From Natrinema versiforme JCM 10478 (lineage in GTDB: Archaea; Halobacteriota; Halobacteria; Halobacteriales; Natrialbaceae), in assembly GCF_000337195.1 (NCBI RefSeq), contig NZ_AOID01000019.1, forward strand, positions 1 to 64,000: 64,000 bases of DNA, in the 5' to 3' direction. Numbering within the stretch: position 1 is the first letter of the stretch; every line of letters starts with the position of its first letter. Below the pieces are notes generated by a model. It had not been told where the DNA came from and did not search any database. It saw only the letters and a list, made by a program, of their open reading frames with translations. Made by a program: the position numbers and the translations under genes. Positions 5,743-5,910 of this stretch are shown piece after piece.

Positions 5743-5910
5743 TTAGTGTTGGTCACGCAGGTCTTCGAGTTCCTGCTCGGTCGTCTGCCGGCCGCGTTTG
5801 AATTCGGCCATCGCCTCGCCGCTCGAGTGGGCGAGTTCGGGGATTTTCGACGCGCCGAATAGCAAGATGCCGATCGCGAGTATCAGTGCGAGTTCGGGAG
5901 GTCCAAGCAT
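5743..5910 (-). CDS. tatA: TatA-like twin-arginine translocase subunit (55 residues)
   Basis: A short gene encoding MLGPPELALILAIGILLFGA followed by SKIPELAHSSGEAMAEFKRG and a charged tail. This is the TatA layout: a short transmembrane helix, the Phe-Gly hinge, an amphipathic helix beginning with (S/N)KIPELA, and a Lys/Arg-rich end. TatA assembles the pore or membrane-weakening patch that passes folded proteins docked on TatC. At 55 residues it is at the short end for the family. No tatC is in the window, so it would have to work with the host's TatC. It lies in the middle of an operon encoding several Tat substrates. Confidence 0.92.
   Translation of the reverse strand: MLGPPELALILAIGILLFGASKIPELAHSSGEAMAEFKRGRQTTEQELEDLRDQH

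Follow-up and report, generated by a model that had tools for sequence, protein, structure and literature searches.

A short TatA encoded in the structural operon of a pR1SE-like haloarchaeal plasmid: a possible accessory to host Tat export of the element's surface proteins

The structural operon of a pR1SE-like plasmid encodes a 55-residue TatA protein. The gene was found in the window analysed here, which starts at the first base of contig C19 (72,995 bp) and covers 64,000 bases of it. We propose that its product is an accessory TatA that would work with the TatC of the host in order to export the Tat-routed surface proteins of the element, a reading drawn from sequence comparisons and to which we assign a probability of about one half. 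The same operon encodes a protein with a conserved internal twin-arginine signal, called the anchor below, and a phage tail-fibre-like protein, called the spike. A second plasmid of the same family, in Halorubrum saccharovorum, also combines anchor, spike and tatA.

The TatA protein of the plasmid

The open reading frame belongs to the TatA/TatE family according to the curated profile cut-offs of both Pfam (PF02416 TatA_B_E, 5.6e-16, 58 bits, cut-off 21) and NCBIfam (TIGR01411 tatAE, 59.9 bits, cut-off 53.9). In an alignment of eight haloarchaeal TatAs, the invariant residues include E6, F18-G19 (the hinge), G31 and G40-R41. Thus, the 55-residue TatA with a Phe-Gly hinge anticipated by a sequence-only reading of the window is confirmed. 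A polar residue near the start of the transmembrane helix, the FG hinge, a hinge-region glycine and the amphipathic helix are all present. We take G31 to be the hinge-region glycine, from its presumed E. coli counterpart. Moreover, a profile made of the window TatA and seven other haloarchaeal TatAs matches solved TatA/TatB structures (best 1.1e-12).

The closest relatives of the window TatA (62-66% identity) are encoded on chromosomes of the same family. The plasmid protein shows about 62% identity to the host TatA over the core and lacks the acidic tail of the latter. Its amphipathic helix carries K-to-E and R-to-H changes with respect to the near-invariant chromosomal TatAs. In the genome containing the window, two PF02416 matches were found, the window copy and the main tatA of the host, which is of chromosomal type and located on contig C13. 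Three TatC-type matches (PF00902) are all located on contig C44, so that there is no tatC beside the plasmid tatA and the plasmid does not carry a self-contained Tat translocase. As a small stand-alone TatA existing besides a main copy, with a transmembrane helix, an acidic residue near its start, the FG hinge and an amphipathic helix, the window protein resembles B. subtilis TatAc and TatAd. Unlike these proteins, it is the product of a mobile-element operon for surface proteins, without a TatC partner there, and misses the acidic tail.

The carrier plasmid

An 89-bp terminal direct repeat suggests that contig C19 is circular and that it probably represents a plasmid of about 72.9 kb. Using blastp with pR1SE and with a plasmid of N. 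halobius, all the pR1SE core genes (ORF6, 7, 8, 9, 17, 21-25) were matched in order across the circular junction. Because the complete core set follows the pR1SE order, including the ORF6-9 and ORF17, 21, 23-25 clusters that characterize the family, the element is, as judged from gene content, an apHPV (pR1SE-like) plasmid. The ORF17 homolog matches other haloarchaeal plasmids in addition to pR1SE. According to the account given in PMC10818511, pR1SE is a plasmid spreading in self-encoded membrane vesicles and the apHPVs are a family potentially spread in this way, transfer in plasmid vesicles being demonstrated for pR1SE alone. The variable stretch of the apHPVs is located between ORF9 and ORF17 and comprises 3-11 genes that are seldom shared (PMC10818511). 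The window plasmid and pR1SE also have in common the presence of variable genes within the structural operon; pR1SE, unlike the window plasmid, has no tatA, anchor or spike. The sequence-only reading had assigned tatA to a virus or plasmid with a virion-type operon. Its mobile-element setting is borne out, since the gene is part of the structural operon of a probably circular pR1SE-type vesicle plasmid. Strictly speaking, the operon is of the plasmid-vesicle type and not one that encodes virions.

Organization of the operon and Tat signals

Table 1. Genes of the structural operon and their supporting evidence (window positions unless stated otherwise).
Feature	Position	Strand	Evidence or remark
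Two small proteins of cluster 2 (98 aa, 104 aa), judged by inspection to be of membrane type	43..646	(-)	
ORF17 homolog, start of cluster 2	643..1920	(-)	pR1SE 18769-19686, 1.4e-43; 14 plasmid records
Tat-signalled protein between ORF9 and ORF17	2490..3323	(-)	N. halobius homolog 7e-63; Tat motif
ORF9 homolog, Sec-type start by inspection	3721..4965	(-)	pR1SE 12795-14303, 4.5e-14
FkbM-family methyltransferase, GTG start	4962..5756	(-)	PF05050 5.8e-17; TIGR01444
tatA, 55 aa, minimal TatA without acidic C-terminal tail	5743..5910	(-)	PF02416, TIGR01411, alignment
Spike, phage tail-fibre-like, likely start 7669	5996..7705	(-)	PHROGs, tblastn, adaptor common to other apHPV spikes
Anchor, 319 aa, internal Tat signal	7684..8643	(-)	7 homologs, RR and AxA invariant
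HNH endonuclease of the homing type, an insertion into the operon	8834..9982	(-)	PF18780 1.9e-44, PF01844 1e-7
ORF8 homolog, Tat signal, likely start 10757	9975..10784	(-)	PF10518 2e-4; pR1SE 11889-12683, 1.3e-29
ORF7 homolog, S8 peptidase, Tat-like signal, likely start 12328	10760..12451	(-)	PF00082 3.9e-37; pR1SE ORF7 3.7e-43
ORF6 homolog, beta-propeller, very large	12325..16005	(-)	blastp to pR1SE 7502-10228, 7e-71
ORF21-25 homologs	contig 64842-72902		Operon continuing across the contig junction

Between the ORF8 and ORF9 homologs, a cassette contains the genes for the HNH endonuclease, the anchor, the spike (557-569 aa), TatA and the FkbM methyltransferase (Table 1). The last four have no counterpart in pR1SE, and the cassette site is without a match in pR1SE or in the N. 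halobius plasmid. The insertion lies before ORF9, in contrast to the variable ORF9-ORF17 region noted in PMC10818511. As proposed beforehand, tatA is located between the methyltransferase gene and a fibre-like gene, all on the same strand. Anchor and spike are separated by 14 bp, spike and tatA by 85 bp; tatA overlaps fkbM by 14 bp, and fkbM overlaps ORF9 by 4 bp. The open reading frame of the anchor was at one stage considered as ORF9; this assignment was dropped, the homolog of pR1SE ORF9 being the gene at 3721-4965.

The Tat signals that had been read from the sequence are present in the protein encoded between ORF9 and ORF17 (TRRRFLRRSGAAL), in the ORF8 homolog (SRRQFLTGATATA) and in the ORF7 homolog (TRREHLYSIGAG), as is the internal one of the anchor (TRRGLLTFLGALL). 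For the ORF8 homolog, the match to the TAT_signal profile (PF10518, 2.1e-4) is just below the cut-off of this profile. ORF8 homologs carry a Tat-like motif at 34 of 40 loci, some of which are the same region fetched twice, and pR1SE is among them. From this motif frequency, vesicle plasmids appear to depend on the host Tat system in general.

As regards the HNH gene of the operon (HNH_repeat), a second HNH-like gene was identified by eye in the window at 19995-21029, and in the plasmid of DC36 an annotated HNH gene (L083 4190-5431) lies between the ORF6 and ORF7 homologs. The HNH genes of the window and DC36 operons suggest that apHPV operons may be repeated targets of such genes.

Anchor and spike

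Full-length homologs of the anchor form a set of seven, in the window, H. saccharovorum contig 51, CP031299, CP019330, DC36, G324 and G185. In all seven, a twin-arginine motif lies some 100-130 residues from the N-terminus, with a hydrophobic stretch and an AxA motif after it; R102, R103, A122 and A124 are invariant in their alignment (AxA at 122-124). From this arrangement we infer that the anchor consists of an N-terminal domain, an internal Tat signal and an exported C-terminal domain. When a profile built from these seven sequences was searched against 125 Natrialbaceae and 170 Halorubrum-family genomes, the weak matches obtained besides the full-length homologs were almost entirely confined to profile positions ~80-140. 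These positions cover the Tat segment, and such a result would be expected if this segment resembles ordinary Tat signals. Peptide scans recovered no relative of the anchor in IMG/VR, and none was found in the phage collection.

The best PHROGs match of the spike is to phrog_5207 (unknown function, 1.9e-12), and a match to the minor tail family phrog_23595 was also obtained (9.5e-8). By tblastn, 414 phage records match parts of its first ~300 residues; a comparison with PDB sequences gave no match up to an E-value of 0.1. The resemblance between the spikes adjoining the other anchors is limited to a short N-terminal adaptor, after which they diverge, and some of them look by eye like beta-helix proteins. 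This conserved N-terminal adaptor followed by an exchanged C-terminal part, together with the minor tail and tail fibre family matches, recalls phage tail fibres and spikes. In contrast to these, the window spike is carried by a vesicle plasmid beside a Tat-targeted anchor, and no tail genes were seen. By inspection, no signal peptide was seen in the window spike. Binding of the spike to the anchor is suggested by the order of the genes, which is its sole sign. Structure predictions from two-sequence alignments reached pLDDT values of 35 (anchor) and 34 (spike), too low for a fold search.

Occurrence of tatA in other apHPVs

A second apHPV encoding a TatA was found in H. saccharovorum DSM 1137 (contig 51). 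Its protein has 46 residues and matches PF02416 (1e-9); with TIGR01411 it scores 43.3, below the cut-off of 53.9, and its identity to any TatA compared is at most 47%. The gene overlaps by 4 bp an ortholog of the anchor (48% identity to that of the window), next to which a spike ortholog follows (34% identity over 204 aa). Anchor and spike are therefore associated with tatA in a distant apHPV as well, in agreement with the conservation of the neighbourhood that had been proposed as a check, while the position of tatA differs (after the spike in the window plasmid, before the anchor in H. saccharovorum). The same gene order was not seen on an ordinary chromosome. Both apHPV TatAs are strongly diverged from chromosomal copies and retain the key residues. 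In a tree of 40 TatAs over 54 columns, they pair (99/73) within a Natrialbaceae group, a pairing that is weak because of the very long H. saccharovorum branch. In the same H. saccharovorum apHPV, a 199-aa protein of unknown kind is encoded at L070 10062-10661(-), the start of its gene touching the stop of the spike gene.

Among 31 distinct apHPV core regions, tatA is present in two, corresponding to 2/7 regions with an anchor and 0/24 without. At face value the probability of this split is 21/465 = 0.045, a value to be read with caution because the presence of tatA was the reason for selecting the window. Since five of the seven anchor-bearing apHPVs have no tatA, the gene is not needed for the cassette. 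The survey was based on ORF17, matched in 30 genomes; four weak matches (E 4e-4 to 9e-4) were left uncounted. Of 29 places with a strong match, 28 were fetched at length, leaving out a second, equal-scoring copy in G383, and the region of G090 is ended by the end of the contig about 6 kb upstream. The plasmid records pR1SE, CP031299 and CP019330 complete the 31 regions; others, such as CP050018 and KX906370, were left out.

Occurrence of tatA on proviruses and other elements

A single TatA match was found in 27/29 genomes of the window's genus and in 37/39 Halorubrum genomes; the others have two (G000 and G143; G097 and G335, respectively). In these four genomes, the second copy is located on a mobile element each time. 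In G143, this element is a betapleolipovirus-like provirus with matches to phrog_3232, phrog_2231 and phrog_1979 (1.6e-110), and one of its proteins is similar to a protein of SNJ2, HHPV3/4 and HRPV-3. These PHROGs are of unknown function, and we take them to be VP3-like, spike and ATPase families, respectively. In G295 (Natrialbaceae), a provirus encodes a 59-aa TatA whose gene overlaps the upstream gene by 4 bp. The tatA genes of the two betapleolipovirus-like proviruses (L207 9156-9335(-) and L208 9010-9306(+)) lie within the structural operon or at its end, and their products show 75% identity over 49 aa. Both loci contain a phrog_2231-type spike together with VP3-like and ATPase genes, and in both the spike has a Tat-type signal. 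Thus, these two relatives of the structural modules of SNJ2, HHPV3/4 and HRPV-3 carry tatA among the VP3-like, spike and ATPase genes, and they are the nearest to a virion-type operon with tatA. For the window operon, a PHROGs scan of eight of its proteins gave no betapleolipovirus structural match. A phrog_2231 search gave two matches in the genome containing the window, one of which, among the matches listed, is on contig C49. Relatives of the window TatA were found neither by tblastn in the phage collection, which includes SNJ2, HHPV3/4 and HRPV-3, nor by peptide scans of IMG/VR viruses. The suggested search for this TatA in other haloarchaeal viruses and plasmids was therefore successful for a second apHPV and two pleolipovirus-like proviruses, and unsuccessful for the two virus collections.

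The betapleolipovirus spike family is present in 219 of 391 Halobacteria genomes. To the two tatA-bearing loci were added 80 fetched spike loci (60 mostly from other families and 20 from Natrialbaceae), hand-picked among the spike matches listed. In none of these 80, fetched with up to 10 kb of downstream sequence, does the operon contain tatA, which indicates that tatA is a rare addition; it is thus present at 2/82 loci, both found through tatA itself. A Tat-type signal was observed in 23/82 of the spikes, including those of both tatA-bearing loci, and was commoner in the Natrialbaceae sampled. This count superseded a looser one made on 62 loci (19 Tat-like, 12 canonical by eye). A link between tatA and Tat-type spikes is suggested by these loci, and is not significant over the 82 (P = 0.076 for two random spikes being both of Tat type). 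In this spike survey, seven genomes of several genera (G096:C80, G224:C70, G188:C41, G235:C5, G262:C26, G130:C38, G230:C23) gave an identical match of 510.9 bits, with the same frame length and two internal TGA codons, pointing either to a shared contaminant contig or to very recent spread.

The second tatA of G335 is located beside tatC. Their contig, 33 kb long, also contains genes that by inspection are integrase-like and Orc1-like. This Halorubrum contig therefore has its own tatA and tatC (L206, G335:C10:20001-33130, 8691-9639(-), with L301; PF00902 2e-53). It also carries archaeosine/queuosine-type genes (two TGT, PTPS, radical SAM, QueC), and a 575-aa protein with a Tat-like start is encoded near tatA-tatC. 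Two kinds of candidates were not counted as element-borne parallels. The tatA of L292 (G203) lies ~7-8 kb from a spike, and all six listed genomes of that genus have at least two tatA. Chromosomal-type tatA genes on megaplasmids (16 records match) were also set aside, because no such operon was seen around the five inspected.

Possible roles of the plasmid TatA

The Tat system carries folded proteins, and also complexes bearing the signal on one partner (PMC4273604, PMC10924467). TatA, its most abundant subunit, assists translocation with TatC, and B. subtilis is an example of a species with additional small TatAs (PMC6708511). As no TatC is encoded on the plasmid, the accessory TatA would assemble with the TatC of the host. 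Upon switching on of the operon, the plasmid TatA would raise or reshape the Tat capacity of the cell, such that the cargo, namely the ORF7 and ORF8 homologs, the protein encoded between ORF9 and ORF17 and above all the anchor, may be pushed through the membrane before vesicles form. The spike has no signal and looks like phage tail fibres, which are of a cytoplasm-folding kind; it would therefore plausibly leave the cell in its folded state, carried along by the anchor as a hitchhiker, and such a bulky cargo would suit an extra TatA.

Alternatively, tatA could be a host gene picked up by chance in the variable part of the operon, with no dedicated role in export, an explanation that we regard as possible and somewhat doubtful. 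The seldom shared genes of the apHPV variable region (PMC10818511), the rarity of tatA among the apHPV regions and the proximity of the window TatA to chromosomal TatAs of its own family, in a weak tree, are in line with such a capture. However, the tight one-strand packing with its 14-bp and 4-bp overlaps, the recurrence of the anchor and spike neighbours in a distant apHPV and that of tatA in pleolipovirus-like proviruses are less easily explained by chance. The retention of key residues despite strong divergence also speaks against a chance capture, as does the pairing of both apHPV TatAs, within the limits set by the few columns and the long branch.

Two other explanations can be considered. 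TatA oligomers could thin the membrane for the budding of vesicles or enveloped particles, membrane weakening by TatA being one model of Tat action (PMC6708511). The occurrence of tatA in two kinds of elements thought to exit as membrane-bound particles, the lack of TatC on the plasmid and the shortness of three of the four element TatAs (down to 46 aa) would agree with this idea. We nevertheless find it improbable, because pR1SE, most apHPVs and most pleolipovirus-like loci do without tatA, while Tat-signalled proteins accompany the gene in four cases out of four. The diverged TatA could also form a separate TatA-TatC complex favouring the substrates of the element or competing with the complex of the host. 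The divergence of both apHPV TatAs, including the K-to-E and R-to-H changes of the window TatA mentioned above, would fit, and a parallel dedicated system is provided by TatAd-TatCd of B. subtilis for PhoD (PMC6708511). Little credence can be given to this proposal, however, because the element has no TatC and the choice of Tat substrates is mainly made by TatC and TatB (PMC6708511).

Beyond an accessory TatA working with host TatC, a more elaborate scheme can be envisaged, in which the operon would encode a Tat-based device for surface display. A phage-type, receptor-binding spike would fold in the cytoplasm and dock on the anchor by way of which the Tat signal is provided, host TatC and element TatA would export the complex, and the spikes displayed on vesicles would choose the next host; pleolipovirus-like proviruses would have adopted the same trick with their own tatA. 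Taken as a whole, this scheme is rather unlikely and is put forward tentatively.

Significance

The literature searched, consisting mostly of open papers and their main texts, yielded no report of a TatA that a mobile element encodes in an operon of this kind; the contig may be present in Table S3 of PMC10818511, the main text of which makes no mention of Tat or TatA. The idea that no virion-type operon with its own tatA had been described thus holds for this literature, and the present case is not unique, given the second apHPV and the two proviruses. To our knowledge, the anchor-spike cassette would be the first phage-like module for host recognition to be proposed on plasmid vesicles. Moreover, the internal Tat signal and AxA motif, conserved in seven proteins, offer a direct test case for the handling by Tat of signals located away from the N-terminus.

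How vesicle plasmids and pleolipoviruses put receptor-binding proteins on membrane particles is poorly known. The present data suggest that part of the machinery with which mobile elements display their surface proteins is, in some of them, encoded by the element itself. If such elements bring their own TatA, particle assembly would be limited by the export of folded proteins in the host, a step on which a small gene would make it possible to act.
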